DNA of 64,000 nt, taken from Straminergon stramineum. Lineage: Eukaryota > Streptophyta > Bryopsida > Hypnales > Calliergonaceae. The stretch covers positions 14,758,501 through 14,822,500 of the forward strand of contig OY987273.1 of assembly GCA_963920665.1 (NCBI GenBank). The letters are read 5' to 3'. The position numbers were made by a program, and so were the translations under genes. The notes under the pieces were generated by a model, which did not search any database, was not told the DNA's origin, and worked only from the letters and a program-made list of their open reading frames with translations. Shown in pieces: positions 11,869 through 52,375 of the stretch (its first letter is position 1; each line of letters begins with the position of its first letter).

Positions 11869-11871
11869 TAA

Positions 11872-28834: not shown

Positions 28835-29110
28835 GCAGAGCCGCGGTCGAAGCCTGGGTGACCTCGGGTAAAGAATTGCATGAAAAAGGCGAATTCGGGT
28901 AGTGACTGAGGTGACCGCGTCTGAGAAAGGCGACCTCGAGTACGATCAAAGGCGACCGCAGCTGAGGAAGGCGACCTCGTTTGGCGAGCGCTGCAGTCAC
29001 TTCGCGACCGCGGGTGGGAAGTTCAAGCGACAGCGTGTGTGAAATGCTGGCAACCGCGCATGATTTTGGGCGACTGCGGGTCTGGAAGTGCGACCACGCC
29101 TGCCTGAAAC
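28835..29110 (-). repeat. Array A: GCGACC-N-CG motif cluster upstream of gene A
   Basis: The plus strand shows repeated cores such as GGCGACCTCGAGT, GGCGACCGCAGCT and GCGACCGCGGGT, spaced irregularly by 10-40 bp. In gene A's direction they read CGCGGTCGCC. The block is far richer in CpG than the flanks. It probably forms the upstream promoter of A. The same motif precedes genes B-E. Confidence 0.7.
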
Positions 29111-29167
29111 CTCAAAATCCCATGGGTATGTCCTGCTCGCATCCACCAAGACAAATTTTAAACTATT

Positions 29168-29540
29168 GTAAGCCCTACTTGACCAGGGCCTATTTTCCGA
29201 ATTTCAACGTCTTCCAATTTGCTGTGAAGTGAACAAAATGCCAGCATTTTGTAAAGATGTATCATTTTTTGCAAAATTGTAACCGTAAATGCTAGAGATT
29301 GTACATGATAAGAAAGTACTACAATATCCCTTATGGAGTGAAAGATTATAATGTTTGACTTTGAAGGTGTTAAAATTGCTAGAAAAAAATTGGACACTTT
29401 AGTGCAAGTTAGATCAAAGAACTTGGTGACCAAAATAAATTTAAGGTCGAGGGGCCTAACCTACAGAATCCTAAACAATTCATGGCTACTCAAATTATAC
29501 TTATTAAATTTTTTAAATGATTTTGTTTTTGAATTTTAAA
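29168..29540. repeat. Second copy of the 5.3-5.75 kb repeat
   Basis: It starts TAAGCCCTACTTGACCAGGG and shares GATTATAATGTTTGAC and the surrounding order with 5346-5750. Both copies sit just upstream of a minus-strand gene. Confidence 0.55.
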
Positions 29541-29957
29541 AATGTAAATCTCAGCCACAAGGGGATTCTCTTCCCTTGGTCTCAATGAACTATGAGACTA
29601 CTATGTATATATGAACAACAAAATTTGGAAGCTTCATTGGACATTTTGGCAAATAAAATTAGGAGGCTTAGGTTGTTTAACACTTGAAATTTTATACCAC
29701 GATTTGAAATCTTGTCATGAGGCCAAAGGTCAAAATTAAAGATAAAAAACTTTAAATAAAAAAAATTCCAAACATTTACTTACCGTCCCAAGAAGCCAAA
29801 ACAACCCGCCATTCTTTTCCATTGATGCAATTAAATACTTTAATTAAAATAAAAAGAGCAAACACTACCAATCCATTGATAACTTGATGATTCCTTCATG
29901 TGGATATTTTGATTTTGGATATTTATTCAATTGTGGAATGCCTTTATAATAGAGTAT

Positions 29958-30450
29958 GTTATTTTAGAAGCACAATGCACCAACACCATATTTGTTTTAC
30001 TTTGGAAATTGACTATTTCTTTTAGAGGATGTTTCATTCCTATTTATTTCTATATTGATTTGAGAGATTGAAATAAACTCCTAAAGGACTTTGTAATAGT
30101 GTATTTTATTTTGGAATTGCAATGGACAAACAACATAAAGACATATAGTCTATTCATTTTGAAATTCATCATTTGTTCTAGAAGATGTTGAATTTCTTTG
30201 TTTTATTATGATTTGGTATCCATTTCGGGATGGATTCATATTAGACTCTTCTATTTTAGACGCACATTGGATAATTGCCATATTGTTTTTCCTTCCTCAA
30301 ATAACTATTTTCTTTTAGAGTATAATGGATTCTTATATGTCTTTATGCATCACTCTTCATTTATTATGCAAGAGTGTTTTTCTTCTATTATATGTTATTT
30401 TGGAAAAGAAAAGATTCAGTTTCAAATCACTTTTAATTGAATTTTTGATC
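29958..30450. repeat. Degenerate tandem repeat, ~145-bp period
   Basis: Units begin near TATTTTAGAAGCACAATG (29958), ATTTTGGAATTGCAATGGAC (about 30109) and TATTTTAGACGCACATTGG (30250), each followed by a C-A-A/CATATTG stretch and TTCTTTTAGAG. About three to four copies, strongly diverged. Confidence 0.5.
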
Positions 30451-31970
30451 CAAAAGTACACATTGTGGCCATAAATAGAATTGATTAATTTAGTTCTACA
30501 TCAATTGGTTCCATTGTAGCTTAAACCAATGAAGACGGGATACAATATGGATGCCTACTTTATCATCATTCATTATCTTCAAGAAACTTCGAAATTAGCC
30601 CTATGAAGTTCCATTGTCCCCTCGTGGGACAAGAAAAAATTCATGGAGGTCTCTATGATTTTAAAACTCGTTTTAATTTTTGGATGCTTTTTTGGAAGAC
30701 AGAAAATCACATAGATGTTACAAAAATAGAATTTTTATTTCAATTATTCATTTATTGCTAGGGAGAAGAAAATATGGCACCAAAATCCTTTTGGGGTTCC
30801 AATGATTTCAAAATAAACCTAAAGAATACTTCTAATATATACAATTTTTAAATTTTGTTACAAAAAAATTGTATTTTTATTTGCATGGGAAGCTCTCATT
30901 CAATTCATTTGGATTTGTTTTGCAAAAATTATGGACAAACTTGTTTTGGGAACATTAAAACATCTTCTTGCCAAAAAAAAATTGTACTATTCATTTTTGC
31001 GCTCCATTTTCACATATCACAATTCTTTCCAATAAAATGTCTTACAAGGTTATGACGTCTAGGGCTCTATGCAAAAGAATCTCACCGCTTACCTCACAAT
31101 GTTTCAATTCCAACTTTAGGCTATTAGTTTCGGAGATTTTTCTTCAATCATTAACAAATAACAATTTTTTCGTAAGTCAAAACCAAAAGAACTTCCTTTT
31201 TATTGTAGACCCTCCCGTTAGTTCCTTGTCATAATCCATAAAGAATTAGAAATTCAAAATTTGATCAATAAAAATTTTAAGTTCAAAACGTTTCAAGTAA
31301 AATAAATTTGAATGGGTTAGAGCAAGATGCAAATGAACTTAATTTCTCACTTCAAATGCAAAAAACTTGCAATCTACAAGGTCCAAGTATTTGAAATATA
31401 TAAAACACATTCTCATACTAGTCTAGTATAAGATCCAATGCTAAATGCTTAGATATGTAGAAGAAAACATTTTGAAATTTGTTGCTCTTTGCTATTGAAA
31501 TGGTTGTTAAGAGTGTTTTCTATGAGAAAAATGCCTTGGAAGTTTAGAGGTTTATACAAATAATAAAATGTTGTTATCATAGTAAATGAAACTCAAGCAA
31601 TAGGTCATTACATGCTTTTATTGTACTCAATGAAGTCAAAATGATAACCACCTTGAAGGAAGTGCAAATGGTGGACTCTAAATTTGTATACAAACAAAGT
31701 CAATAAGAAAAAAAAAAAAAAATTTTAAATCACCAAATTTGCTCAACAATAGTTACAAAGGGTAAATATTTTATATATTTACATGTTTTGAAAAATACAA
31801 TATCGATCCTACAAAATTACAAAAATGGTGGATAAAAAATGACATGTTGTCATGTAACATCCACATTGTCATGTTGCCCTATTTTCCTGTGTTATTCTTC
31901 CGTGATTCTTCCTTTGCCCAAATTGTAGTTGAGAATCTTTGATATTGGTGCCATGGTCATGGTGCAAGTA
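30451..31970. other. AT-rich spacer between genes A and B
   Basis: No gene seen; only short ORFs and homopolymer runs. Confidence 0.55.
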
Positions 31971-33293
31971 TCACCTTTGCGACAGAAGTTCATGTTGTGA
32001 TCTCAAGGACTTCAACTCGTTTTTCTTCTTATTGACGTCCTCATCCAATTGACCCTTCAATTTGAGACACCCAGTTAACTTCTTCTTCAATTCCTCAACC
32101 TCCTCCATTGATATCTTGGATTGCTCACAATATTCTTTCCACCCGTACATATCCACAACACGGTCAAGAGGCACTTTGTCCTTCCTGTCGCATAGGCTCT
32201 TCAAACGCAATTCTTCCTCTTTCAAAGCTATTTTATCTTGACCGAGAGCACGTGCTTCAATTGTGCAATCCTTTGTAATGGACAAATGTCGCTCCTTTGC
32301 AAATGGATTTGAAGATGACCCAGAAGCCCCATCTTGAGAAGCACGAAAATTGCGGTAAAATGCTTCCAAGTTCAAAATCTCCTCGTGTAGACTTGACAAC
32401 CGCATCTTCGCATCTTCCACCTCCGCTTCCACATTGCGCAGCTCATCACCATCATGTCCATCAAGCTAGCCTTGAAGCGCATGGCATTCCCTTTTCTTGT
32501 CCTCCAACTCCTCAAGAAGTATACGTAGATGGATTTTGTAATACTCTACAAGAGATTCAGTTGGGGAGATCTCAGGATTTGCATGCTCAACCTCTTGTAG
32601 TTCTCCACCCATCTCTCCCACATCCGTTGCAATCATGTCAATAGAAGCCACCACAACATTGGTATTTGGAGTTGGCATTCTCATCGTGGGAGCTCTATCC
32701 ATTATAACCTCATCAGGTGGGTCATCATCGCTATCTGAAGATTGAGAACTGCTGTGGTTAGACCACACAAACTCATTGTTTGGCACTCCGTGCTTGATAA
32801 AAAGATTTCTTCCTAGCCCTTCACGTGGATTAGCAGAAGGGCCCGCTCTAGGAATGGATTTGACTGTTGGGAGGTTGGCAAGCTTGGCCCCTTTGATTGT
32901 CCTCCAATCCACGGTTCGTCCCAAGATGACCTCTGCGTACACCATTTCACATAAAAACAATGGAACCTCATTCCGTGGCACATGCTGTGTATTGTACAAG
33001 TATCGATGTACTTCAATACATTGTTGTACAAAGGCGTCATGCGTGCATGAATGCAGATTTGCCACGTTGGACTTCAAATGAATCTTGTGGCGTTGGTGCG
33101 GGAATAGCTTATCGATGTGGCACCAGTGTACAAACATTTTGCAAGTTGCTGATGACCAATCCCCTTGAACTCTATCCCAACCATCCGCAGCTAACACTTG
33201 TGGATCCAAGAGGATGCGTCTTTGTCTGCTCTGTTGCCTTCCTTTCGCTTTTCTCTTCTTCTTGTTGGCCTCCATCGAAAAAGAACCCGACAT
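31971..33293 (-). pseudogene. Gene B: WCHI-domain coiled-coil protein, one internal TAG
   Basis: One frame of 441 codons from ATG at 33293 (a second ATG at 33275 is the alternative start), broken only by TAG at 32468-32466. A Lys/Arg-rich start (NKKKRKAKGRQQSRQRR, a likely nuclear signal) is followed by a domain at residues ~38-135 with MFVHWCHIDKLFPHQRHKIH, RNEV and MVYAEVILGRTVDWRTIKG. That domain is shared with genes D and E; I do not recognise it. An acidic Ser-rich linker (SSSQSSDSDDDPP) and long coiled coils (ELEDKKRECHALQ; EEVEELKKKLTGCLKLKG) fill the C-terminal half. I call the shared unit the WCHI domain only for convenience. The gene reads away from array B. The frame is nearly intact, so decay is recent. 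Function unknown. Confidence 0.7.
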
Positions 33294-33414
33294 ATGTGAC
33301 ACAATGATGAGTGTAAGAAGGCCAAAAATAACCCTGTGGTACTCAACCCCCCAACTCACGGACTCGTAGTTAGCCACAATAAGGCGGGTAACCGAACAGA
33401 GCGCTGAGTTGGAA

Positions 33415-33920
33415 GTGGTGACCGCGGCTGGGGGCGACCGCTCATAAACCCGCATTCTCCTCGAGGCGAGTGCGGGAGAGGTGCATGCTCTCCTGGGCGA
33501 CCTCGGGTCAGGACCGCGTGAGAGGAACGTGAACGGCCCACAATGGTTTGTGAAGGCGACCTCGGCTTCAAGGCGACCTCGTCTAGTGCGACTGCGGCTT
33601 CGACTGCAAAAATTTTAAATTCAAGATCCAAATAACACGGCGACTGCGTCTAGGCGACTGCGGCTTGGGTATGACATTAGAGAAAGAAGTTTGAAAACCA
33701 TAAGCGACCGCGCGTTTTGGGCGACCGTGGGTGAGGCGACCGCGTGTGAGGCGACCGTGTCTGGGCGACCACGACTTTGACGGCAGAGTTCAAAATTTCC
33801 CGCACATACGAGTTGGGCGACCGCGCCTTGGGTGACCTCGGGTCCCCTTACGAGGCTGAAGAAGGATTTTGAAATTCCCACCAAATATGTCCCTCCAAAA
33901 AACTCTTTGGCGACCTCGTG
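33415..33920 (-). repeat. Array B: GCGACC-N-CG motif cluster upstream of gene B
   Basis: Plus-strand cores include GTGACCGCGGCT, GGCGACCTCGGGT, GGCGACCTCGTCT, GCGACTGCGGCT and GCGACCGCGTGTG. In gene B's direction they read CGCGGTCGCC. The cluster begins about 120 bp from the gene start. Its open frames (33631-33356, 33884-33621) are artefacts of repeat composition. Confidence 0.7.
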
Positions 33921-35780
33921 TCCAAATACAAGGGAAGATTCCAGCCCCTTTAGGACTAAATGGAGTCATTAACCTTTAATGCCCAACCACCAAATTTTGT
34001 GGTTGAGCTCCTCAATGTCCAAGGCACCAAAAGTCTTGCTTCACCAACTTTCATTTTGTTTTTAAAATTCTATGGGCTATGGCTTGTTCATTTGTTCCCA
34101 AAAAAAATAAGAAATAAATGAATCAATCAATCAAAATGTGCCCCCCCCTCAATTATTCTTCTTACCACCACAACTGCAATATTTCTCCACTTCTTCATCA
34201 TCCATTTCGTTGAATTTAAAGTTGAAGCACTCCCAAATTAAATTGAGAAAACACCACATACTCTCCCCATTTTTCCCCCACTTGGACATCTCTTCTTTTC
34301 AAATTCAATTCACACCCCTTCCAAAAGAAATTCCAACACCCTCCCCATATTCGGGGGCACTTGTGGTCTTTTCATTTCCCAATTCAAGCACCGACACTCC
34401 TAAATTAAATTGACAAAGCACCACACACTCTCCCCATTTTTCTTTCCCACTTAGACACCACTTTTATCAAATTAGAGAATTTAAACCCCAAAATTATTTT
34501 TGAGAGCATCTCCGCTTCATTCCAACTTGTGTTTCCGATGTACCCAATTTAAACACCACAACTCCCCAAAATGAATCTCTCAACGCTCACACACTATACT
34601 CCACAATGCTTTTTCTTAACAGCCATTAGTCACAATCACTCCTAGTTTCAAGAAAGTTAATGCCCCAACCCTAGCTCCCACACCTTCATTATTTAATTGA
34701 AAACTCCACTCATCATGACCACTTCCAACATCACAAAATTAAATATACCTAGTCTTCCATCCCCTTACCATTTTGGAGTCTATGGTAAAACAAACCATTT
34801 TTCCCCAAGTCCTATACCCTACATCTTTAATTCACACCTTCAATAATAGCATTCATTTAACTTTCTCATGTCCCATTTTATAATTGCCTCGAGAGTTGGG
34901 CTAGCACCGCCGAGTTATCTCTATATGGAATTTATATGAGCGGTGGTCAATTCATTATCACATGATGCTCCCTTGTTTGTACTTGGCTTGGTTTTGGTTT
35001 GTGAAAGGCTTGATCCTATATTTTTTCAACTTATTGAATTATTGTATTGAAGAAATTCTTTTGTGAAAGCCTTTTTCAAAGATTTGTGAGAGATAGGCTC
35101 CCTCTCCACTTGCATTTATTTCTTTATATTTTAACAAATCAAAAAAATAACCATTGCATCACTTAGACCGAGAAACAATGCATCATTGCATCCGTGAAGA
35201 GGTAAGAGTTACACTTCCAATTAGACAAAGAAATCTGTTTATATTTAAATGATATAGAACTCAATAAAAGTGAGACCATTGCAACTGTTGGAACATTTTC
35301 AATGTTCTTAAGAGAATCGCCACCCATTGATGGGGAAGCTCCCCAGCCAAGGCTTGGTTGTGGCCAGCCTCCAACAGAGGCTCCACCGGGGACCCAGCCA
35401 AGGAAGGACAGAGGCCGGTCATGCCAAAAGTGGCCTTGGGAACCTCACGACATCGTCCACTCTAAGTGTGTTGACTTCGGAGACTTACATGTCAGTTCCT
35501 ATGGAGTTGTGCTTTCATGTGAAGTCGGGCTTTCCTATGTAGTCATGAATCAACCCCCTTTCCACCTTGTTGAAGTCCTCGGCTTTTTAGCTAGGGGTGC
35601 ATGTTTAAAAAAAGAACCCCAATTTTGTCCTTCATTGACCTATTTTCTACAATACTCCACTGTATTTGGGGGCCTTTGATTGCCCATAAGAATTTTAAAT
35701 TTGTAGATACTATGATGTGTGGCAATTAAATAGATCTTATTTTATTCCTGATGATAAAACCAAAGATGAGAAAACTTAAA
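33921..35780. other. Spacer, low-complexity C/A/T-rich
   Basis: 34100-34900 is rich in CCACTT/CTCCCCA stretches without repeats clear enough to define. A short GC-richer piece lies at 35325-35460. No gene that I can support. Confidence 0.5.
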
Positions 35781-35789
35781 GAGGTCAAT

Positions 35790-37270
35790 CCATCCAAGAG
35801 TCTATTTGTGAAGAGGTCAATGATGTAAAAGATTTAATACATTGTGACTAATGCTCAACAAGCTCATTAGTTAAGTAATTATTTCCAATATACAAAATCT
35901 TCTACAATTTTTGACTAGAAGGGAGGGTAAATTCTTTAGAATAATTATACATTTTCTATACAATATAAGACACCTAAGTACAAAGTTGTAGGACAATTGG
36001 ACACTTTTAGAATTTTTTGCAATTTTTTTATTGCTTTTACTTACAATCTAAAAAAACAAGAGAAATTCAAGTGGACATGTCCAATTTTATATGTTAGGAT
36101 ACATTTTAAGGATTCTTTGCAAATGTTGGGAGTTCTTTAAATCAATTTTGGAATGCAAAAGGCAAGTAATTTCAGAAATTCAGACAATATATGAATAATG
36201 TGACTAATGCCCATTAGTCCCATTAGTCCCATTAGTTACAACCAAGCAAATTTGCCACAATTTTTGCATGGACATTGAAAACTTTATTGAAATTTGTGCA
36301 TATGCTCCAAACAATGTATGGCACCTACTTGACAATTTGAGGGACCATTGAATACTTTTTGAATTTTTGGTAAATTTTTCATTGTTTTTGCTACTAATTC
36401 AGAAATTTATACACAATTGAGTTGGCATGTCCACTTTCATGCCTTAGGATGTTTCTCTAGGTTTGATTGCAACTATTGGGAAATTTCTAGGCAATTTGGG
36501 AAATTGGCTTGACTATGACTAATGTGACTAACCCCCCCAAGGGGGATTAGTCACATTAGTCTCAATTGAGGAAATTTGCTATAATTTTTGCATGGGTTAG
36601 TGAAATTTTCTCAAAATTTATACATAAGTACTACATTATGTGAGACACCTATTTGCCAATTTATAGGACTATTGGACACTTTTTGAATTTTTGGCATTTT
36701 TTTCTATTGTTTTTGCTACCAATTTAGAAGTATATATACAATTGAGTTGGCATGTCCACTTTCATGCCTTAGGATGTTTCTTTAGGGTTTATTGCAACTA
36801 TTGGGAAGTTTTTAGGTAATTTGGAAATAAAAAAGGCAAGCAATTTGGCAAATTGGCTTGATTGTGACTAATGTGACTAGCCCCCCTTGGGGGGGTAGTG
36901 ACATTAGTCACAGTCAAGCAAATTTGCTATAATTTTTTCAGGGGTTAGTGAAATTTCCTCATAATTTATATATAAGTACTCAATCATGTAAGACAACTAT
37001 ATGCCAATTTGTAGGACAATTGGACACTATTTGAGTTTTTTGCAATTTCTTGATTGTTTGACTCCCATTTCAAAAACAAATGACATTGGAGTTGAGTTTC
37101 CCAGTTTTATAAGATAATTTGATGCTTTGGGATATTTTTCAATATTTTAGAAAGTCTTAGGCATTTTTTTGAATCAAAAGGTAGAATTGTAGAAGATTTT
37201 ATGCATTGTGAGTAATGTAACATGCTTGGAATAGGCATGAGTTCAATAATCACAGTCTATAAATTCTTCC
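35790..37270. repeat. Tandem repeat, ~340-bp unit with central hairpin
   Basis: About five diverged units centred near 35850, 36210, 36545, 36885 and 37225. Each centre is an inverted repeat with arms like TGTGACTAATGTGACTA and TAGTCACATTAGTCAC around a C-run/G-run loop. Units share GAGTTGGCATGTCCACTTTC, TTTGCTATAATTTTTGCATG and GACAATTGGACACTTTTTGA. Confidence 0.75.
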
Positions 37271-37987
37271 ACAATTTTCTTATGGAGGAATGATTTTTTT
37301 GTGATTGGTAGATTTTTATATACTTTGTGTTTTTATCTTGGTGCAAATTTGTGTGTGTAATTTTATAGCTATAGAAGATTTTTTATTTCTCCTATCTCAT
37401 TTCTTTTTGCGCAACTTATTAGATAAAAAAAGAAAATGGAATCACATTTGCAATTTTTTTAATTGAAAATCCTAAAAAAAAATGTCCCACAATTGCTCAA
37501 ACTTCCCAGAGCAAACAACTTACTTTTGCATTTTGTAAATCAGAAATTGATTCCTAGCCAAACTCAAACTCACAATTTCTTCCTCCCATTTCTTTCAATA
37601 CAAGTTCATTCTAATTTTTTTCCAAAAACTAATAGGTTTCATAATTGGCCAAAATCAAGCACTATAATCTTCCGTCATTTGAATTGTGATTGACTCTTTT
37701 TTAGAGTGACCTTTGGCAGGGAATGAGTGGCATGTCTACCCGTCAAGAGGAAGCCACAGCCTTGGCAAGGCTTCAGCCGCCCATTCCCCCGACCCTATTT
37801 GGGGGGAATGAGTGGTGATGCTCTAAGTTGTTCCCAAGTTTCTTTGGGAAAAATATAACACATGCATTTCACCATGAATAGAGAAAAATAATCACATGCC
37901 ATTGTTTTCTGCCATTTCCGGCACTTCATGGAGGGACTTGTAGGGTTGGTAGGGTTAACATGGTTGGTAGGGTTCAAGCGAGAGTGG
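37271..37987. other. Spacer before array C
   Basis: No gene. A small GC-rich block at about 37700-37826 ends GATGCTC-TAA and may be a MITE remnant. Confidence 0.45.
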
Positions 37988-38820
37988 GGCGACCGCGCTT
38001 AGTGCGACCGCGGTTTCAATTTTGGGTCGCATACTCTCTCTAAGTCCAAGAATTTCGTTGACTCGCGACCAATTAGAAGGCGACCACGTCTGTCAAGAAC
38101 CTCGTGTACGCATGGCGACATTTTGTAAAATCAGGGTTAGAAAGAAATCCAAAGAAGTACCCGCGGTCGCCTAATACGCGAAGTCGCCCAGCGGACCCGC
38201 TGTCGCATTGGTAGGCACAGTCGCTTGAACCCGAGGTCGCCCTAGAGTCCACAAAAGGTTTGCGAGAGACCCACTTGGTACCCGAAGTCGCACTGGAATG
38301 CGCGGTCGCCCTGTACCTGCGGTCGCTTGAACCCGCGGTCGCCTTGGAGTTTGCAATTGGTTTGCGAGAGACCCGCTTGGTACCCGAAGTCGTACTAGAA
38401 TGCGCGGTCGCCCTGTATCCGCAGTCGCTTGAACCCGCGGTTGCCTTGGAGTTCACAATTGGTTTGCCAGAGACCCGCTTGGTACCCGAAGTCGCACTGG
38501 AAAACACGGTCGCCCTGTACCCGCGGTCGCCCTAGAGTTCGCAATTGGTTTGCCAGAGACCCGCTTGGTACCCGAAGTCGCACTGGAACGCGCGGTCGCT
38601 TGAACCCGCGGTCGCCCTGGAGTTCGCAATTGGTTTGCCAGAGATCTACTTGGTACCTGCAGTCGCATTGGAACGCGCGGTCGCCCTGTACCCGTGGTCG
38701 CCTTACCGCACTCATCCTTTCCACCTACCTCCATGCGCCCTCGCGCGACTTCGGGTACTTAGTCGTTCTCTTCCACCTGCGGTCGCCATTCTTGGCCCTA
38801 TGCACTGCCTTTCACCCGCC
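37988..38820 (+). repeat. Array C: motif cluster with 85-102 bp higher-order repeat, upstream of gene C
   Basis: About twenty GTCGC cores on the plus strand, as ACCCGCGGTCGCC, ACCCGAAGTCGC, AACGCGCGGTCGCC and variants. A higher-order unit starting GTTTGCSAGAGACCC recurs at 38258, 38360, 38462, 38548 and 38633. The first ~140 bp (37988-38130) carry the core in the opposite orientation (GGCGACCGCG). Long ORFs on both strands here are artefacts of the repeat. The cluster ends about 115 bp before gene C. Confidence 0.75.
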
Positions 38821-38934
38821 TAGTTGTGGCTAAATGCGTGTCCGTGGGCCGGGGATTCTTCTTGGGGGGGGGGCAGCTTTTTGTTTTTTTGGTAGGGAAT
38901 TCAAGAAAGGGTTTTTTAGATTCGTACACACATC

Positions 38935-40509
38935 ATGTCTAATCCACATGAAGGTAGCAGCTCGAGGCGAATATCAATTTGGGATATGGATGATCCCAAG
39001 AATTTTGAAGTGCCTATTCCTACAAGTGTCACAACGGGAAGTGCAGCGAAGAGAAAAAAGCCTAGGACGGCCCATGAGAAGGACCCCACATATCCTCCTC
39101 CAAGTTATTCAAAGTTTGCATACGAGGTGACTCTCCAATGGTATGCCGGGAAAAGTGTCCAGTTCCTAGATGCAAACTACTTGAGGGACCCCACTTCAGG
39201 CATCGAAAAGCTACAAAATGATTTGACGCTTGGGATTTTAAGCAAGTGCTTTGAATCCGAGGATTTCAAGGACGTGGAGTTAACATATAATTCCAGAGTG
39301 GACCAATGGCTTAATGATGTTACTCAATTTGTTGTTTTTAACAGCAAAAGATTGATGAATGACCTTCGACCTCGAGTGTCTGGACAAGTGGAAGATGACA
39401 TGGCAAAAGACTTCCGTTTGGAGATGGAATGGTGGCAAACTGTTGTGAAGAAATTGTCAAAGTCCGCATCAAGGGGATTCAAGTGGAAAAATGAAGCAAT
39501 GGTGGCGGCATTTGCAAAAGATGGCGGATTGAATGTCACGTGGCTTCCGCCTTCGTCAAAGGTGGAGGCCCTTGGTGGGTGGGCACGTGAAGGTGGGCAT
39601 AGGAAGGTGTGCAAGGTGCGCATTCAAGGGGTACCTACCGTTCCCAATTACATTGCTTTAGCGGGCAAAATGCCCCAAAACAAGAACTTGCAGGATGCAA
39701 GGGTGGAGCAATCTACAGAGGCATTAACATGCCCCTTGAATCATCCAGCCATTATAAAATTCTTTGCCATCTCAGCCAAAACCATAGAAGCATATACTTT
39801 GTGGTGGAATGGAGGTCATTTGGGCAAGTTGAAGCAATGGAATAACAAAGTGTCACCAACCGTGGAATGGAACCAAATGCATCGAGTGAGGGAACTTCCT
39901 GAGGAACAACAAAAAGAACTTTCCCTTTTTCGAAGGCACAAGGCAAAATTGGCGTGGGCTCTAGTGTACGTGACCCACCTACTGCACGAAATGTTGGTGC
40001 TACACAATGACTTGTCTCCAAGGAATGTATTGTTGCATTTTCCCGATTATTCAAACGACGTTATCAACATTGGGATTTGTGATTGAGGGATCGCAAGTTG
40101 GATAGACGAAAAAGCCCCCTCTCATTATGGGTATCGAAGCCAAGATGAGACAAATAGACAACGACATGGACGTTGGTGGGTGGCTCCGGAGCTCTTCTAC
40201 ACCTTCGGGCCCGAGAATTCGGATACGAGCCTCTCCATTATGCAATCTACGCATAAGTATACGATGAAATCTGATTCATACTCCATTGGAAAATTGATGG
40301 AGTGGATGAAGATTGGCGATATGGATAATATTGATGAAGATATTTTCAAAAGTCCAGAAACATGTAGGTACTTTGCATTGAAGTTGGGCCAACTCACCGA
40401 AGAAGATCCAATTAATAGGCCAACATGTAGCGAAGTGGTGAATTTGGTTATGGGGCCCCCATGGAACATGATACCACCAGAATTTGTGTTCCGTAAGTCG
40501 CCTTTGTAG
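38935..40509 (+). pseudogene. Gene C: protein-kinase-like, stop codon inside the DFG position
   Basis: One frame of 525 codons from ATG at 38935, broken only by TGA at 40084-40086. The N-terminal ~225 residues are not a domain I know. A kinase fold follows: ALAGK (Lys 245, candidate ATP-anchoring Lys), an αC-like ARVEQSTEAL before NHPAIIKFFAI, catalytic loop HNDLSPRNVL (residues 357-366), then GICD-(stop)-GIASW at codon 384 where the Asp-Phe-Gly motif belongs, WVAPEL (APE motif, ~417), DSYSIGKLMEWM (subdomain IX) and a C-terminal RPTCSEVVNL. A Trp codon (TGG to TGA) would restore D-W-G. The glycine loop is not obvious. Known family members transfer phosphate to Ser/Thr or Tyr; the target is unknown. 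The gene reads away from array C. Confidence 0.75.
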
Positions 40510-41284: not shown

Positions 41285-41688
41285 AGCTCCTATTAAGGGC
41301 TCCAGTAAATCCTACAAGTTATTATTTTCTTAAAAGATGATCTAATTGCCCCCAAAACAAGAATGTCAATAACTTTTTCAAAACAAATCCAAATGAAATG
41401 AATTAAAACTTTTTAAATAGGCAAAAATATTGTAAGAGAAAAAAAACTCAGTTTTTTGGTTTTTACAAATTCTTCTAATTTTTTTTGGTGCTCCCCTATT
41501 TTGAGCTTGTTTGGTCACAATTTGGTTCCCAAGCACCAATTGTGAAATAAATTTCATTTCCACAAAGCTTATGAATTTTTTTTAACTTCATGAAAAGTTT
41601 TAAACATCATGATGAAAATTTAGCCTGTACGTACTTGCCCAAACCCCCATTTCTCTCCTAGATGTCCGAAAGGACAATGGTCGTTTAG
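41285..41688. mobile_element. Partial TTAA-type MITE (right end)
   Basis: Its right end GACAATGGTCGTTTAG at 41673-41688 abuts the next element directly. The internal part (CTACAAGTTATT, CTAATTGCCCCCAAAACAAG) matches the other copies. The left end is missing. Confidence 0.5.
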
Positions 41689-42612: not shown

Positions 42613-43389
42613 GGATTAAAGATAGGATAATAATGCCTTTCGATGAATTTGAGATATTTAAGCATGTGTACACAAATTCCATTTTCTTGCAATCCAATGC
42701 AATTCTTTTTTTCCATGTACTTGTCCTTTCTACAAATGCATAGAAAATGTTGAGAATTATTTTTGCACCATATAGTTTTGGGCTTTGAATCTTTGTAGTG
42801 GAGAATTGAGTTGAAGATTTGGGGTAAAAATAAAAATTCAAAAAAACTTAATTTTTCATTCTTACAAAAATTGATATGTAGAAGTAGGTACAAGATAGAA
42901 GGAAAATCTAAAATATTCATGTCTTTTATTAGGAATTAAAATGGTGAGATTGTTCTAGCTAGTAAACTAAACCATGAAAAGCGGAAAAAATTGAAAGATA
43001 CAAAAATCGGATTCACAAATGAATCCTATAAGTTATTTTCTTCACAAAGATTGGAAAGTGCTATGATTGCCCCCAAAACAATAATGTCCATAACTCTCTG
43101 AGAACAAATCCAAATTAAATGAATTAAAGATTTCCAAATAGGACAAAATTTAATGTGTGAGGAAAAAAAATTCAAATTTTTTTTTTGGTGCCCCTAGTCC
43201 CCATTTTGAGCTTATTTGGAGATAACTTTTGTTTCCGGGTAGCAATTGTGCAAAAAATTATATTCCAACAAAGCTTATGAGTTTTTTAATCTTTGTGAAA
43301 AGTTTCAAAACATCACAATGAGAATTCAGCCTATATGTACCTACCCGAAATTCCATTTGTCTCCCGAAGGGACAATGGTCCTTTAGGGG

Positions 43390-44322
43390 TTAACCCCTAA
43401 AGGACCAAGGTGCCTATTTTGGCAACATAGATTTTTTGGGTAGGTACGTGTGACTAGAGATTATATTGTTTTTCTTTGAAATTTTCACACAGCATGTGGA
43501 CGAGGAGTATCTTTAAGCTCCCCAATTTTCATAACTTTTGATCTCATACTTAAAGAGTTATTGCATGATATGCTGTTTCTTTCTCAACTCGGGCAGATCG
43601 GGCAGGTCTAAAAAAAACACTTTTTTTAGAAATTAAAATTTGAAATTATTTTTCAAGATTTATATAAGAGAGAAAAGCTTTAAATCAATCCATTTTGATC
43701 AATGAGTCAAAAGTTATGAGGATTTTTTGTTTACGGGCAGTTATAGATTCATTACTCCAAAATAAACTTTGAAGTTCATTATTGAACTCAATTTTCAATA
43801 TTTTGGAAAAAACAAACAAAAACATTGGCTGTAGATTGTATATCACAACATTTCAACCATTGGGATTGACATTTTTCAATTAAAAAAATAAATTATTAAC
43901 AATTTAGTATTTTGAACCATTGGCAACTTCATTCTACTTCCTATTTTTTTCCATAATGTTGTACAATTTCAAATGATTTGAAAATTTTCAAGCATGTAGC
44001 CAACTTGACTTGAAACATGAATCCAAAGAAGCACCACCAATTTGGTCATTTTTTCATGCAAATATGACTTTGTGAAGAGAAACTGCCCTATTTTTTGCAA
44101 AGTTAAAATAATGATTTTTGTCATTTCAAATGCTAATATCTTGCAATCTATAAGGTGAAATTCTCTGAATTTTTTTTCACATCTTCTTGAATAAGCTTAT
44201 TACAAGATCCTACAGTTACATGTGTCCAATATTTTTTTTTTTTCAAAATTTGGTACATGTTCTAGAAATGGCAGTTTTGGAGCATTTTTGATGAAAATGT
44301 AGCTTGGTCCTTTATGGGGTAA
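43390..44322. mobile_element. TTAA-type MITE-like element, inverted copy
   Basis: It starts TTAACCCCTAAAGGACCAAG and ends GGTCCTTTATGGGGTAA, with the conserved CAAGATCCTACAG and AGAAATGGCAGTTTTGG stretch near the right end. Its left terminus forms a perfect palindrome with the right terminus of the preceding element around the shared TTAA at 43390-43393. Confidence 0.6.
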
Positions 44323-44517
44323 GGTACATCAATTTGCATAACTTTTGACTACTAACATGGTTTAAAAGCCATTCTATAATATATAATTTTCTATAATTAT
44401 TGGGAAGCTCAAAAAATTTCTTAAATAATCACTTTCTAGAAAGAAAAGTTTCAAATTGATTTTCAAAATTTGTATATACAATTTGTACACCCTCCAAAAG
44501 GTGGAATGAAACGAAGA

Positions 44518-45000
44518 GGAGGAGCAGTCGCTGGAGGCGGGGTCGCAGGTGGCGCGGTCGCAGGAAGCACGGTCGTAGGAGGCGCGGTTGCCCATAAGCT
44601 GGACCTGAACCTGCAGTCGCCTAAGCGCGGTCGCCCAGACACGGTCGCCTTCGCTTTAGGATTCGCATGCGCCCGCAGACACACGGTCGCAGGAGGCGGG
44701 GTCGTAGGTGGCGCGGTCGCAGGAGGCACAGTTGCCCATAAGCTGGACCCAAACCTGCAGTCGCCCAGACACGGTCGCCTTTGCTTCAAGATCCGCACGC
44801 GCCCGCAGACGCGCGGTCGTAGGAGGCGGGGTTGCCCATAAGCTGGACCCGAACCCGCAGTTGCCTAAGCGCAGTCGCCCAGACGCGGTCGCCTTTGCTT
44901 TAGGACCCGCACGCGCCCCTTTGTGCATGTGCCCCGAGACGCGCGGTCGCCCCAACGCGACCTCAGGTATATGTGGCCGCGACTGACCCACAATCGCCAT
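44518..45000 (+). repeat. Array D: motif cluster upstream of gene D
   Basis: Sense cores such as GGCGCGGTCGCAGG, AGACACGGTCGCC and AAGCGCGGTCGCCC. A higher-order unit containing CCCATAAGCTGGACC recurs at 44591, 44735 and 44835. One core near 44957 is inverted. The 3' edge (TCGCCATTC, then TGCACT, CCTAG, GTGGCT) matches the 3' edge of array C (38780-38840), so the two leaders share ancestry. Confidence 0.7.
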
Positions 45001-45316
45001 TCCCACCTTCTGTGCACTATTCGGTCATCCACCTAGAAGTGGCTGGCTGCATGTTCGGGAGTTGGATTTGACTCTGTGACGTGGCTAGGGGTCATTCGCA
45101 CATTTTTGGCCTCTAATTACTCGTCGTGCATTTTGTGCAATCTTCTGTGAATTGTTGTGACCATTTCCTTCTTGTAAATGCACTTTACTTTGTAAATGTG
45201 AAGTCTAAGTCTTTCAAGGTCCACCATTTATAGTGCCTAGCCTAGTTTACCTTTTTTTGCGGCCTTATTCATAAACCCACCTCACACGTGTGGATTAGAC
45301 ACTCGAGGACATCATC

Positions 45317-46750
45317 ATGGAGGACGGGACCCCATCAGCACCGTTTACTACTCCAAAACCGCTCACTCGACCGTAGAAGAAGGCACTTCGTGACAAAGAT
45401 CGAAAAAGAGCAGGGAGAATTCGCAAGAAGCGCGTGCCTTTGCTTTTGCATCCCAAAATCAAGGCTTCTTTGGGTTGGAGAACGGAACCTGAGCCTTGGA
45501 CGTACGAAACGGTGAACAAATACGTGGATTGGTGCCACATAAACAAAGTGTTTCCGCTTTGGCATCACAAAATTCATGTGGAGCAGAACAAAGCAAATTT
45601 GGGATATTGTCTAAACGAGAATTTCACCCGAAGATGCCTCAATGTATGGATCAGATTGTATGATGAGCCAAAACCATACCGGAATGACAATTTTTGTTTT
45701 TTCCTTGTTCAAATGGTATATGCGGAGTGTATATTGAAGAAGAAGGTGAATTGGTCAACGCTGAAGGAGTTCCCCATTGGAGACCGTCCAGAAGAAGAAT
45801 CCATTCTCAATGAACATGCAGCAATTGATGTCGGGAAGACTTTGACACCAGTGAAGCCAGGCAAGCTAGTTGTCCAAGATGAAGAAGTGGTGTGGTCACC
45901 TAATTCTAGCTCAGATGAGCACATCGATGAATATGACGGATATCGCTTTGAAAGCGATGATGAAGATAGTGTCAGAGGTGGATAGAACATTGTTTTGGAT
46001 TTTGAAGTACTAGAGAAGGGGAAAGAAAGAGTTGATGAGGCAAACATGGAGACCATCATCAATCAACAAGGCAAGTCAAAAGAAAACCTTCTCGAAGATG
46101 ATGAACAAACGTTGGAGACCCAAATAAGCACGGCCATAATTGCTTTAGAAGATGTCAAGGAGCAGATCGCGGTATTGCAAGTCCAAAAAGCCACAACTCC
46201 ACGTGCTCCATCCAATGTGGTTAGTGCGCATGGGTCCAAAGAAGAGCTGAAAAGCATCAGCGATGCCATTGAAGAAACTCAAGGGCGTTTAGATGCATTG
46301 AGGAAAAGCAGGGACAATTATCGCAAGAAGAAGGACGAAAATCGTGGGCATCTCGTGGATGAGTATTCTGTCTTAAATGAGAAATTGAAGATTTTACAAC
46401 TCGATTGCCACAATGTGCAGAAGGAAAAAGAAGTAGTTGACCTCCAAATGAAAGAAAAAGAGCGGGAGTACTATGATGCTGCTTTGCATTCGGCGTCAAT
46501 TGTGAACGTTTCGACCATGGCTCTTGAATTTGGTAGCACGCAAGGGGAGTTAGCAATATTCCGTAGTCTCGTGAAGTTGTATGAGAAATCAATTACAATA
46601 TTAAAGGAAGAGCAACGTGACTTGGATGTCCACATTGACTATGAAATAAGGTGGATTAAATGGAGGGAAGAAGCTATAAGAAATGAACGTGCAAGAATTG
46701 CCGACCCATGGCCTGAGCCTAGGGTTAGCAATTATGTGAGGCCTAGGTGA
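45317..46750 (+). pseudogene. Gene D: WCHI-domain coiled-coil protein, two internal TAGs
   Basis: One frame of 478 codons from ATG at 45317 to TGA at 46748-46750, interrupted by TAG at 45374-45376 and 45983-45985. A basic start (KDRKRAGRIRKKR) leads into the domain shared with B and E at residues ~54-152: EPWTYETVNKYVDWCHINKV, FPLWHHKIH, NKANLGYC, MVYAECILKKKVNWSTLKE. An acidic Ser/Asp linker follows, then about 250 residues of coiled coil (EETQGRLDALRKSRDNYRKK; KEKEVVDLQMKEKEREYYDA) with a C-terminal basic segment. Both TAGs fit CAG to TAG. The gene follows array D by about 320 bp; a TTTATAG sequence near 45228 is a weak core-promoter candidate. Its WCHI domain looks closer to E than to B by eye. 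Role unknown; possibly a structural or adaptor protein. Confidence 0.7.
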
Positions 46751-46964
46751 AGAATACTGTGGTGTAGGATTGTAATGGGGATGTCAAATTTTGAACTTTT
46801 GGGGATTTAGGCCCAATTTTTATGTGAATCACTCTTTTCCAGGATATATAAAATACTAAGTTTGTTTAATTGTGTATAATGAAGCAATCATGCATATTTT
46901 CATGTCATGTATGTGTATTTTGAAGTGTTTGAGTGTATGTGTATCTACCTTTCAAAATTGTTAT

Positions 46965-47495
46965 TTAACCCCCTCAAGGACCAAGGCCTTTTTTTTGCCA
47001 ATAAACATTCAAAACTGCAATTAAAATTGGTCTAGCACTCTAGCGAGGAAGTGAACCTTGTAGGCCTTTCCACAAAAATTGCAAAATTGCATTCAAGAAT
47101 AAATCCTATAGAAGTTCTTTTTCCGAGAAGATGCTTAGATTGCCCAAATGACAAGATCATCCATAAATTTGACAGTTCTTATCTAAATGAAATGAATCAA
47201 AGTTTTCTACGTAGGTAAGATTGAAATCTCTAGAAAAAAATGTTTGAAAAAATAATATTGATTTCTGAATTTTTTTAAAGTCCGGTCTACCCAATTTCGA
47301 GCATATCATTTGTTTATGCCTTTACGGGCCTAACTTTTGTCCTGAAGACTCTATAGAAGAGCAAACTTTATGCCCATGAAGGTAATCATTTTTTTCATCT
47401 CAAAAAGGTCTTTTAGCAAATTATGACAGAAATTGTGATTAGAGGTACCTTCCCAAATTCCAATTTGTCCCCCCAAGGGACAAATGCTCCTTTAA
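46965..47495. mobile_element. TTAA-type MITE-like element, internally deleted
   Basis: Left end TTAACCCCCTCAAGGACCAA at 46965; right end GGGACAAATGCTCCTTTAAAG near 47495. At about 530 bp it is shorter than the ~930-bp copies. An isolated inverted left end (TTGTAGGGGTTAA) lies at 47960-47972. Confidence 0.55.
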
Positions 47496-48050
47496 AGCTG
47501 AGTGAAATTGATTGTTCCAAGCCTCCCACACCCTTCCCATTTTTTTTGGTTCCCAAAGATTTCAAGTCACTAGCACTCCCTACTTAATGGAAAAAATTGT
47601 CCCAACCCTCCTACATCGTTGCCAATTTTGTTTTCCAAAAATTTGAAGTCATTGGTACTCTTCAATGAATGAAAAGAAATGTTCCAAGCCTCTTACACTA
47701 TCCCCAATTATTCCCCCCTAAAGTTTGAAATCACCACTAGTTCCCATTTAATTAAAATAAATGTCTCACCCTCCCACAATGTACGGGGTCAAAATTCCTC
47801 AAATTTTTGCCCATCTTCCTACAGTAGAGTACTTCAAGATCCTACATTCCTACGGTTACACTTGCCCGAATTTATTTTGTTTTTCAATTTTTTTGTACTT
47901 GTACTAAAAATGGCACTTTTGGAGATTTTTTGGTGAAAACATATTGAAGGAACTATAGCTTGTAGGGGTTAAGATCAACCACAAATATCTTGCAATGTGG
48001 GTGTTACAAAATTTCAGATTTCTTGTCCACATATTTTCATATAACTTAGG

Positions 48051-48981
48051 TTAACCCCCTAAAGGACCATTGTTCCTTCGGGGGACAAATGGGATTTTGG
48101 GCAAGTACCTATGGGCTGAATTTTCATGGAGATGTTTTGGAACTTTTCATGAAGATAGAAAAACTGTTAAGGTTTGTGGGAATATAATTTTTTTCACAAT
48201 TGGTGCCAGGGAACAAAAGTTATGACCAAATAAGCTCAAAATAGGGTAGAGGAGGCAATAGAAAAAAAATTTAATTTTTGGAGAAATCTTAATTTTTCTT
48301 TTCTCATAGATTATATTTTTCCCTATTTGAAAAATCTTTAATTCATTTAAATTGGATTTGTGATGAGAAGGTTATGGACATTCTTGTTTTTTGGGCAATT
48401 AGAGCATCTTTGTGAAAAAAAACACTTGTAGGATTCATTTAAGGATGCAATTTTTGCAACTTTGCAATTTTTTTTTTCTTTCCATGGTTTAGTTTACTAA
48501 CTAGAACAATCTCACCATTGGGATAAGTGTATTTTAATTCCTAATAAAAGATATTAATGTTTTAGATTTTCCTTCTATCTTGTACCTACTTCTACTTAGC
48601 AATTTTTTAAGAATGACAAATTAAGTTTTCTTGAGTTTTGGTTTTTTTCCTAGATTCTCAACTCAATTCTCCAATATGAGGATTTAAAGCTCCAAACTCT
48701 ATGGAGCAGAAATTTTTAATTAAAAATGTTCAAAGTTGAATAGTCTAATCCCGCAATGTGTTGAAAAAATTGTCTTTTTCACTTTAGATGCAAATATCTT
48801 GCAATCTAAGCAATAAATAATTCTGAAATTTTTTCCATACATTCTCATACTAATTAGGTATAAAATCCTCTGGTTAAATGTGCCAAAAAACATTTTTTCA
48901 AGTTCTTTTACTCATTGCTACAAAAATGGCAGTTTTGAGTGATTTATGGCAACGAAAAGGCCTTGGTCCTTTAGGGGTTAA
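48051..48981. mobile_element. TTAA-type MITE-like element, best copy, 931 bp
   Basis: TTAACCCCCTAAAGGACCAT at 48051 and TTGGTCCTTTAGGGGTTAA ending at 48981: near-perfect ~18-bp inverted termini starting CCCC and flanked by TTAA on both sides. TTAA targets with CCC-type ends are the hallmark of piggyBac-like elements; assignment of this family is my inference. No transposase inside. Confidence 0.65.
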
Positions 48982-49261
48982 GATCCTCCAATTAGATGTT
49001 ATGTATTAGATTGTACAAACAAAGTTTTTAAAAACAATGTGTATATAGTATATATTGAAAATGAAAGCATTACATAATAGTTGTAGAACTACATAGCTAA
49101 AGACAAAGACTTGGATTTGGAAAAACAAGAGAATGAAATGTATACTATTTCACAATGTAAGTGCAGCTCTACAGATAAAATACTATGCTCTATAAAAGCA
49201 CTTTATCTCTTTTGTATTCTCCCTTATAGGATGTGAGACTACAAAATAGGAGCGCCTATTT

Positions 49262-51751
49262 TTATGTAATGTTGATAACCTCCTTTGCCTTCTGGGTATC
49301 ATTTGACTCCGCACACTCAGAATTTGATGACTCTCCAACCACAAGCTTGTGTTTGGCACGTGTGCGTGAAGATGGTCCATTCGCATTGAGAATTTCTTCC
49401 AAGACATTGGAATCTTTCAAAGCTTCAAGAGTCCTCATAGTTTGTGGGGAGTGTTGTTCCAACAGATAGTCTAGTGCTTGGCTTTGGTAATAGGGCCCAT
49501 ACATTGAGTCAAGAACCGCCATATTGGTAAGGTCTTCGAGTGAGGTATTTTCATCATGGTTGGCCACCCTCTTTCCTAGATTATTCCAACGATGATTTTC
49601 CGGATGAGGGCCCCACTTGAAAGTTTGGGACTTTTTGTCAAAGTACCCACCAAGACATTGGAAAAAAAATGCTCTATTTCCCTCATTGCGAGGGCCTTGC
49701 CCCGCAAGCTTTGGTGCAATTCGGAGAATCTCAGTTGGGTCCGTATGCCAATTCAATTGTGAGTTGGCAGGACCCTTGTCTTGATCATGATGGCCTTCAC
49801 GCCAACTCCAAACCAAGTCTTTTCCCCAAAGTCTTGACTCCGGCATTGTGTCAAGGTTGTGTTCCCAAGATGGTGGCATGTAGGTCATGAGATTGAACAT
49901 GGCATACAGGCGATCGTGGAACAGTGCAGCACAAATGACACAACGTCGCTTGATTAGACATTGTGTGATGAGACATTGAGGATGGTACATGTGTGCACAA
50001 GACCTAAGTGCCCATCTGCCTTCGGGGCCAAAGAATTCTGTGCAAATGACACATTTGGTATGATTGAGAACAAAAGGTGTAGGATTTGGCCACAATAGTT
50101 TTTGGTCCTTCTCATTGGTGTGGCAAGACTTTTGATTTTTGTAGTCCCAACCAAGCTGCGTCCAATCGATCAAGTCCTTGTCATCGGAGACGCCCAACGG
50201 CAAGTTCTTGGGAAACATGTCGTCCATCAATGCCCACGATGTAAGTCCATTCTCGCGCTTAGGGGCTTGAGCAATGAAGTTCCTCGAAACTTTCTCCAAT
50301 TCTTTGGCAACTTGCATGGATCTATCTACGGAAAGTATGCAAGCAACCTTCCAGTGATAGTATGTAGCTCCCAATTCAGCCAAGCGAGCTCGAAGCATTT
50401 TGTTTTCATCTTGCAACCCTAATTTCTTTGTCGACAATGTAGGGTGTGACCCTATGGGAAAAGAAAGGGAGTCTTGAGTGCCCTCAACATCATTTATGTC
50501 ATGAGCATCATTTTCTTTAATGGTAGGAAGAGCTGCATTAGGAACAACAAAAGAACGCCTTGCTCGCTTGTGAAGAGGGGAATTTGAAATGAGACCGCTG
50601 GTGAGATCCCCTACAAGCTTGTCCAACTAATTTGGATCTTGGTCAACCAAACTATCATCCATGTCTGATAAAGACAACGTGGCTTGCACCTTGTCTTCCA
50701 ATTGTTGTAAATCTTTAGATTGTTGAGCAACGAGGGCATTTTTGATTTCCAAATCACATTGCAATTTCTTCACATCCGACTGCAGTGAAGCAATGATTTT
50801 GTCTTTGCTCTCCAAGAGGTCAAGAGCCTTAGACAAAGTCATATTCGTTTCTCCATCAGAATTGGCAATGGCAATAGGGTCACTCGCTTCCATGGGCGTG
50901 TCCTCATCCGGGCCAAAGTCAAAGACATTGCTTGCATTTTGTGGCGACACGGGTTCCAGTGTTGGAATGGTTGTGGACGCTGATGTAGGTCCAATGTAAT
51001 TGGTCGAGCGTCGAACCTTTGCCGGATATCTTCTTTTCCGTCCTTGTGAAGATGAAGATCCTTCGCCGCTTGGATGATGAATTACCACGGTGGTAATTGC
51101 TTGGTTCTTTGCTCGAGCAACCCTAGGAGCCCTTGTGCCGTCGGAGTCATTGTCTTCTTCAAACTCATCAGTGTGAGGTGTCACAGTATCTTTGTTGTGA
51201 GGATCACTTCGAATTGGTCCCAGTCCACCCTCAAGAAATTTGAGAACGCCCCTTGGTATTAATCCAACCTCTGGACGTTGTATGTAAAGACTTTCCTTGA
51301 TCGTAGTCCAATCCACTTCTTTCTTCAATACCACCTCAGCATATGCTCCTCGGGCAATTTGAAGAGTGACTTCATTCCTCTCCACAAAAGCAATTCGATA
51401 AAGGACTTGCCATAGTTCCATGCACCTCTGAACGAAATCCGCATTCTCACAATACTTCAAATTTGCCTTGTTGGTGTGCCAATGGTAATGATGGCACCAT
51501 AATGGAAATAGCTTGCCAATGTGACACCATTCGATGTATTCTTCACAGATGGGAATTGTCCACGGCTCGGCCTCCTCATTCCAGCCTCTAAAAGCAAGAT
51601 GACCAGGACTTTTCAGTACATGCCATCTTTTCTTGTGAATGGTGCCCCTACGCTTCCGTCCCTTGTCTATCATAGCTTTTCTTAGTGCAGCAGTCGGGCA
51701 TACTATTTCCGAAACATGAAGCGCCACGTGAACATTGCCTTCGCTTGCCAT
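49262..51751 (-). pseudogene. Gene E: WCHI-domain / RING-H2 protein, single internal TAG
   Basis: One frame of 830 codons from ATG at 51751 to TAG at 49264-49262, broken only by TAG at 50629-50627 (codon 375). Residues ~57-153 form the domain shared with B and D (EPWTIPICEEYIEWCHIGKL, FPLWCHHYH, NKANLKYC, RNEV, YAEVVLKKEVDWTTIKE). A Ser-rich basic linker and a coiled coil (ESKDKIIASLQSDVKKLQCD) precede the TAG. Past it come another helical part, then a RING-H2-like finger at ~564-609: CVIC, SCAHMYHPQC, RRCVIC. RING fingers of this kind act as E3 ubiquitin ligases. The C-terminal ~200 residues (WREGHHDQDKG, YYQSQALDYLLEQHSPQ) are unknown. The TAG fits CAG to TAG. It could instead be two separate genes, but the second has no ATG at its start. 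Array E lies upstream. Confidence 0.75.
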
Positions 51752-51903
51752 GGGATATGTCGGTGTCCAAACCACAAATGACCACAAGTATGGACAAATC
51801 CAGAAAATAGTAAATATTCTCAACCTGAGGTTAAATGCATGCAGCCAATGAAGGACGCAAGACCTAAAGCCTCAATTGGAGAACGAAGGTGCTAAACTCG
51901 CAC

Positions 51904-52375
51904 GGGCGACTGAATATATAGCAAGGCGACTACGGTTGGCAGGGGCGCATGTGCATGTGCGGGGGTCCCAGAAGGGCGACCACGGGTGCGAGGAGTGCGA
52001 CCTCGGGTCCTAAGAGGCGAACTCAATTGGACGATGCAGGCGACCTCGTCTCACTTGCGACCGCGGGTAGGCGACTTCGGAACCAAGTTAGGCGATCGCA
52101 GCTTACTGCAGTAGGCGACCGCGGCTCCTCATGGTGCGACCACAGGTAGGAATATGGCGACCTCGGGTACCAGAAGGGCGACCACGCGTCTCAGGAGGGC
52201 GACCGCGTCTTGGCGACCACGCCTCTCCAGCGACGGCCTCCTAGCGACCTCGGATTCAAGTTGGGCGACCTTGGGTGTCGTGGGCGACTGCGGGTACACA
52301 TGTGGTCGCCTACTCGAGATCGCCTACCTGCATTCGCTAGAGAGGCAATTGCCTAGACGCAGTCGCCTCCAACTT
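51904..52375 (-). repeat. Array E: motif cluster upstream of gene E
   Basis: About seventeen GCGAC cores on the plus strand, mostly GGCGACC-N-CG-NNT (for example GCGACCTCGGGT, GCGACCGCGTCT, GCGACCACGCCT), reading CGCGGTCGCC in gene E's direction. The distal end (52302-52375) carries GTCGCC cores in the opposite orientation. The cluster starts about 150 bp from the ATG of gene E. Confidence 0.75.
51915..51920 (-). promoter_or_regulatory. TATA-like box of gene E
   Basis: The minus strand reads GCTATATATTC between the first two motif cores of array E, about 165 bp before the ATG at 51751. Confidence 0.45.

Follow-up and report, generated by a model that had tools for sequence, protein, structure and literature searches.

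A five-gene hAT-type element with co-oriented CpG-rich motif arrays at its gene starts in the moss Straminergon stramineum

In a stretch of 64,000 nucleotides from Straminergon stramineum (contig OY987273.1, positions 14,758,501 to 14,822,500; hereafter the window), five genes, A to E, each lie downstream of an array of the same CpG-rich motif. An initial annotation of this DNA had proposed that the arrays are a shared promoter or binding platform and that the five genes may form one multi-gene element of about 26 kb. Gene A (26520..28604, minus strand) is a broken hAT transposase with DUF659 and a hAT dimerisation region assigned by homology. Genes B (32031..33260, minus), D (45317..46750, plus) and E (49262..51751, minus) have in common a domain that we call WCHI after its motif; B carries a long tail, and E continues through a long middle part into a RING-like finger. 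Gene C (38935..40506, plus) encodes a protein kinase with a helical N-terminal extension. By homology the genes start at 28604 (A), about 33260 (B), 38935 (C), 45317 (D) and 51751 (E), and the aligned part of A, 26520-28604, exceeds the open reading frame first listed for it. Stops interrupt the window copies of A (four within the aligned frame, 26634-28604), C (one), D (two) and E (one, at 50627-50629). The RING frame downstream of the WCHI part of E belongs to the same gene, split by this stop. In fact, at another locus of the genome (K12, below) the second part of E lies in one frame overlapping the WCHI part, and a protein from another sample (P0005) spans both.

Array units were called across the window as CGCGGTCGCC with at most two mismatches. 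This core occurs 89 times, compared with 9-56 occurrences for 30 shuffled versions of it, and its clusters stand where the five arrays had been reported. The unit consensus is A-n-n-CGCGGTCGCC (A-n-n-C-G-C-G-G-T-C-G-C-C), and 82 of the 89 units have the A three bases 5' of their core; the TCG columns of the aligned core are fixed by construction, being demanded by the unit finder. Each core holds three CpGs. The arrays follow their genes in orientation almost without exception: array A (28857..29098, minus) has 11 units along its gene and one against, while array B (33417..33918, minus; 17 units), array C (38162..38787, plus; 17 units, partly in 85-102-bp higher-order repeats), array D (44538..44951, plus; 16 units) and array E (51925..52292, minus; 15 units, subterminal at the right end of the element) have none against. 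Two opposed pieces had been overlooked in this inventory, a short central array of three units beside array C (37988..38088, minus) and a small outer array of four units outside array E (52301..52415, plus). Opposed units outside array E are also present in two further copies (K4 and K15), and a longer central array stands between B and C in several family copies. All five gene-start arrays lie close upstream of their genes, as first described; the distance from the nearest unit to the start is about 148-366 bp rather than 115-320 bp.

The same arrangement recurs through the genome (326 Mb, 59 contigs). Core doublets (pairs of exact cores no more than 25 bases apart) occur 215 times, and the reversed pattern does not occur. 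We took twenty 10-kb stretches at such places, which through five adjoining pairs gave 15 loci (K1-K15, 10 or 20 kb each), and searched them with the family proteins; the loci were thus selected by arrays. All 12 loci that contain two or more of the genes keep the window layout, A(-) B(-), arrays, C(+) D(+) E(-), or its mirror image. All five genes are found in K1, K12 and K15, and the other loci are partial, mostly owing to the short stretches; K3 has C only, and K10 and K14 have none of the five. The contrary outcome named in the initial annotation, that A to E never occur near each other, is thus not what we see. The family is large, with at least 82 kinase copies at 91% identity or more (82 scored of 786 candidates). 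When the window kinase was the query, 107 of 693 candidates were scored and seven, the window included, fell into the window subfamily (61-100% identity). Six of these seven, again including the window's own, lie on one contig (C11, 17.4 Mb), perhaps a chromosome that keeps old copies.

The units end in hAT-type termini. The E-side end was defined by comparing K4, K14 and K15 and the A-side end from K14, K10 and K5, and the two termini agree at nine of their first ten bases. An A-side 18-mer has 233 exact places in the genome and an E-side 20-mer 228 at one mismatch or fewer, with none for the reversed controls. We paired ends on four contigs (C1-C4), using 100 listed A-ends of the 233 and 48 E-ends, of which two came from the K loci; among these, 22 of the 48 E-ends pair with an A-end within 45 kb. 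Twelve of the paired spans measure 2.0-5.2 kb, one 12.2 kb, eight 19.9-24.4 kb and one 41.1 kb. The target-site duplication (TSD) of hAT elements is 4-8 bp long (PMC6027215) and typically 8 bp (PMC12506042). Of the 22 pairs, 13 were examined for a TSD, which matches at 8/8 positions in ten, at 7/8 in two and at 3/8 in one. In particular, the eight units of 19.9-24.4 kb, spread over all four contigs, have it at 8/8 in seven cases and 7/8 in one. K14 has TGAAAGAA at both flanks (8/8), and K10 has CTCAAAAA and CTCATAAA (7/8). The A-side CAGGG fits the hAT terminus consensus (T/C)A(A/G)NG (PMC6027215), although the 13 pairs were found by a pattern containing CAGGG. At the E-side, the 13 ends read CATGG (nine), TAGGG (two), CATAG (one) and TATGG (one); the outer end of K10, TAGGG, and the E-side end of the window, CAGGG, both fit the consensus.

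Within these units K15 (contig C2, 21,143 bp) holds all five genes, with C and A broken or cut and one gap of 200 N. In K4 (C1, 22,351 bp) we found E and B, the first 56 codons of C and the beginning of A. Three more of the eight units were partly read: K6 shows the start of C, B and A, K7 shows A and B, and K11 shows C and D. Listed kinase matches fall inside four of the eight units, and no kinase was seen in K7, of which half was read. The proposal of a single multi-gene element thus holds up, given the fixed order and orientation of the genes and the units with hAT-type termini and 8-bp TSDs.

Some features of these copies deserve mention in their own right. Three copies have gaps of exactly 200 N between C and D (L035 6407-6606, L045 5872-6071 and L050 1526-1725), perhaps due to an array that is hard to assemble. 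The 41.1-kb pair (C4:13435497-13476600), whose 8-bp duplication is exact and which contains a kinase, is probably an element with a nested insertion. Mirror pairs of array places or equal-score kinases (C3:28033742-28045572; C10:19316789 and 19338277; C11:2156158 and 2170227) suggest that element parts have undergone large inverted duplications. About 2.8 kb beyond the A-side terminus of one copy, we noticed by eye a frame resembling the endonuclease of a long interspersed nuclear element (L038 4791-6104, minus).

Shorter derivatives of 2-5 kb also exist, and the two that were fully read keep arrays without any A-E gene. K14 combines arrays, both ends and the TSD with no match to A-E in the search with family proteins. 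The K10 derivative (L043), likewise without A-E genes, has doubled termini on each side, with two A-type and two E-type ends in tandem.

The window copy itself is an old, decayed member of a second subfamily, longer than the 20-24 kb units. Its right, E-side terminus lies at 52539..52565 (minus; CAGGGTTTTCTGTCGCGACA read from outside in), followed by a putative TSD at 52566..52573 (plus; CCAAGAAG) whose partner was not found; the A-side (left) end was looked for in the window copy and not found. At two mismatches or fewer this terminus has one place in the genome, and so has its reversed control. Common AT-rich 3' tails between the window genes were considered as a part of a gene cassette and rejected, because K12 and K15 do not have them between their genes and because they also occur beyond the element: the AT-rich repeat at 6784-7708, outside, recurs between genes inside. 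We take the tails as later repeat insertions. Two open frames near that repeat (3510-4100 and 4615-5106, both minus) have no Pfam match. Further left, a weak match (26% identity) to the C-terminal part of transposase A (2467-3075, minus) lies near a decayed tandem array of 48-bp period with AGTCGCCC-like units (859-991), and these traces are perhaps the remnant of a more distant element with the same design.

Arrays stand at gene starts across the family. Counting by hand those starts with uncut upstream sequence, and requiring four or more co-oriented units in 800 bp, we found an array at 8/8 starts of A, 12/12 of B, 12/12 of C, 7/8 of D and 3/3 of E, 42 of 43 in total; the position of the window B start in this count was set by the array position. 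The sole exception is D of K12, where there is an assembly gap. Opposed units number zero or one, except at E, where the small outer array contributes four to six. Independently of array-selected loci, we looked at the 43 kinase starts listed for C1-C4 and found an exact doublet in the 600 bp upstream of 17 of them, compared with 0.005 expected on average under random placement. All 17 are co-oriented and none opposed, so that neither of the other contrary outcomes named in the initial annotation, random orientation or arrays mostly away from genes, is seen. The other 26 starts have no exact upstream doublet, and one of the 43 has a doublet just downstream. Among six loci picked from kinase lists, five have 5-9 co-oriented units in the 261 bp upstream and one has two. 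Seen from the arrays, 50 of 88 places (88 of 100 listed, out of 215) have a listed kinase no more than 20 kb away. Arrays are not confined to gene starts: the one at the A-side terminus (K5 11623-11912) is found 3' of gene A.

The encoded proteins were examined with a Pfam scan of 17 proteins; NCBIfam gave nothing. DUF659 is matched at 1.4e-30 in window A and 2.2e-35 in a family copy (L040), and Dimer_Tnp_hAT at 1.9e-07 in another (L046), above the cut-off. The K12 transposase has CSDGW, CTDNA and SSCERNW, which we take to be the hAT catalytic D, D and E motifs; window A has CTNNA in place of CTDNA, and K7 has CSNGW. At the N-terminus a BED-like Cys/His pattern was seen by eye only, and Pfam BED gave no match. 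Kinase C scores an E-value of 0.01 as the window open reading frame, and the intact family copy matches Pkinase at 3.9e-12. Its structure model matches kinases (1,590 PDB chains at an E-value of 0.001 or better), and the glycine loop, the lysine and the HND, DWG and APE motifs are retained in most of an alignment of 32 sequences (two family copies and 30 relatives, two of these truncated). The WCHI domain had no match in Pfam, and a sequence search gave two weak PDB matches (E-values 0.042 and 0.36), both outside the domain. It is modelled with confidence, with a mean predicted local distance difference test score (pLDDT) of 88-97 in ten-residue blocks over residues 41-180 of 208.

These genes have been held under constraint. 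Between window and family, the ratio of nonsynonymous to synonymous change (pN/pS) is 0.39 for A, 0.50 for B, 0.43 for C, 0.55 for D, 0.41 for the N-terminal and 0.37 for the C-terminal part of E, with upper bootstrap bounds of 0.63 or less; the ratios are rough, with silent sites near saturation and only 261 codons for B. Judged from sequence, the five genes differ between the subfamilies mainly at silent sites. In a WCHI tree the window proteins group with their family counterparts (B, 98/95; D, 100/100; E, 94/100, not starred), and relatives from other samples join the B and E groups, not D; one of them, P0077, is long and misplaced because it was represented only by a stretch from outside the domain. 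B-type relatives in other samples have 45-55% identity (P0077, 90%) and kinase relatives up to 63%, and kinase and WCHI relatives there sit on mostly short contigs. The system probably extends beyond this genome, as these sequences suggest. The viral and prokaryotic collections gave no kinase relative, and the viral collection no WCHI relative.

CpG sites in dispersed copies have decayed strongly. In alignments of six copies for A, nine for B, eight for C and four for D (one of five dropped), change from CpG to TpG or CpA is 5-16 times as frequent as change at other C/G sites, and it is alike in the 700 bp upstream and in the coding regions. From this pattern, the dispersed copies look methylated throughout.

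What we observe directly is the structure of the unit, its ends and TSDs, the positions and orientation of its arrays and the constraint on its genes; movement of the unit by the hAT transposase A is well supported. We consider it probable that A to E form one hAT-type element of about 20-24 kb whose arrays are bound by a protein that the element encodes. Several observations weigh against this reading. The full set of genes with both ends was read in K15 alone, and K4 lacks D and the rest of C, around a 200-N gap; a mobile unit with the whole set thus follows directly from K15 and otherwise from size, ends and parts. The E-side terminus fits the hAT consensus in only 2 of 13 units. By hand count, 57 of the 82 scored kinase copies contain stops and 25 do not. 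The RING-like finger scores 21.9 and 18.7 bits against a curated Pfam cut-off of 27.3, and Foldseek found no match for the WCHI fold among solved structures and viral models (best E-values 8.7 and 4.6, respectively). Finally, no protection of the array region from CpG decay was seen in standing copies of A to D. This uniform decay disfavours a lasting protection by the arrays in standing copies; it does not disfavour a role in active ones.

Could the arrays have a simpler origin? They could be plain subterminal repeats bound by the transposase that have spread internally, so that their place at gene starts is incidental and B to E are passengers. hAT transposases do bind subterminal motifs, and arrays occur centrally and at the two termini, as well as in K10 and K14, where A-E genes are absent. 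In contrast, co-orientation at 42 of the 43 starts, and in all 17 exact-doublet cases, speaks against this explanation. B to E are also constrained to the same order as A (0.37-0.55 compared with 0.39), and orthology within each of B, D and E is old, so we judge it unlikely. Alternatively, the arrays could be only promoters or CpG islands read by a transcription factor of the host, as their position about 150-370 bp upstream, their single orientation and their CpG content would allow; that they are also retained close to the two ends, and in derivatives lacking A-E genes, argues otherwise, and we give this idea little credence. The same distribution qualifies the earlier notion of a shared promoter or binding platform: the arrays are indeed at gene starts, but they are also central, near both ends and in gene-less derivatives, and a platform role would be an inferred one. 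That nested insertion brought A to E together as independent mobile genes seems extremely improbable. The window alone, with repeats between its genes and the same AT-rich repeats at 6784-7708, could look so; however, order and orientation are fixed at all 12 multi-gene loci, neither K12 nor K15 has the AT-rich repeats in common between its genes, and whole units are enclosed by a single pair of ends with TSDs. These TSDs are our reason for rejecting nested separate insertions.

How does such an element compare with known ones? It is like members of the hAT superfamily (Ac/Ds, Tam3, Gulliver) in its DUF659 and dimerisation domains, 8-bp TSD, short terminal repeats and A-side CAGGG (PMC6027215). 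It is unlike the plant hATs surveyed in 2018, of which the longest consensus measures 7,144 bp and none is reported from Physcomitrella, in its five genes including a kinase and a RING-like part, its size of about 21 kb and its mostly CATGG E-side end (PMC6027215). The CACTA elements En/Spm and Tgmt* (20.5 kb, soybean) are also large, and their DNA-binding protein TNPA recognises repeated subterminal motifs; a GC-rich part of these elements is thought open to methylation, like our CpG-rich arrays (PMC2613891). They differ in CACTA ends and a 3-bp duplication, as opposed to CAGGG/CATGG ends and an 8-bp one, and the account of En/Spm and Tgmt* in that source mentions no kinase or RING (PMC2613891). 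Starships and ToxhAT/ToxTA are large multi-gene mobile units too, but Starships use a tyrosine recombinase, and ToxhAT has been reassigned as Tc1/Mariner-like with a TA duplication (PMC12506042). The Starship captain gene (DUF3435 tyrosine recombinase) had no Pfam match among the 17 scanned proteins. Whereas our element has hAT domains, the transposase of VANDAL elements is Mutator-like. VANDALs of Arabidopsis nevertheless resemble it in having several genes and tandem arrays of short motifs in non-coding regions, which VANC proteins bind, with loss of silent marks (PMC10398659). Localisation of VANC was shown by chromatin immunoprecipitation sequencing in work cited by that source (PMC10398659), whereas array binding is a proposal here.

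Arrays at both gene starts and ends are placed as VANC-like and TNPA-like roles combined would need. We envision that the arrays are bound by a protein which the element itself encodes. The most likely candidates are the WCHI paralogues B, D and E, singly or together, since every other domain of the element already has a task assigned to it; DNA binding by these proteins is a guess. At gene starts this binding would open or de-silence the promoters together, and at the ends it would help to bring the termini together for transposase A. With three CpGs per core, DNA methylation may block it. The kinase and the RING-like part of E could adjust the element's own proteins or silencing factors of the host. 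It is possible, and we offer it tentatively, that this is a self-contained system, with a kinase and a RING-like protein of its own, in which a DNA-binding WCHI family of new fold reads methylation-sensitive arrays at each gene and at the two ends, so that silencing, expression and transposition are switched jointly across the family.

In the literature searched, with most subscription journals outside its coverage, no multi-gene hAT with kinase and RING was found. We place the element within the hAT superfamily and do not regard it as a new kind of transposon. The usual view of a hAT element is that of a single transposase gene flanked by short ends; an amplified five-gene unit of about 21 kb with matching TSDs broadens this view. 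It also brings a confidently modelled domain, WCHI, for which the searched structure libraries gave no match, and offers a second system, from a different transposon superfamily, in which to test element-encoded control via motif arrays.

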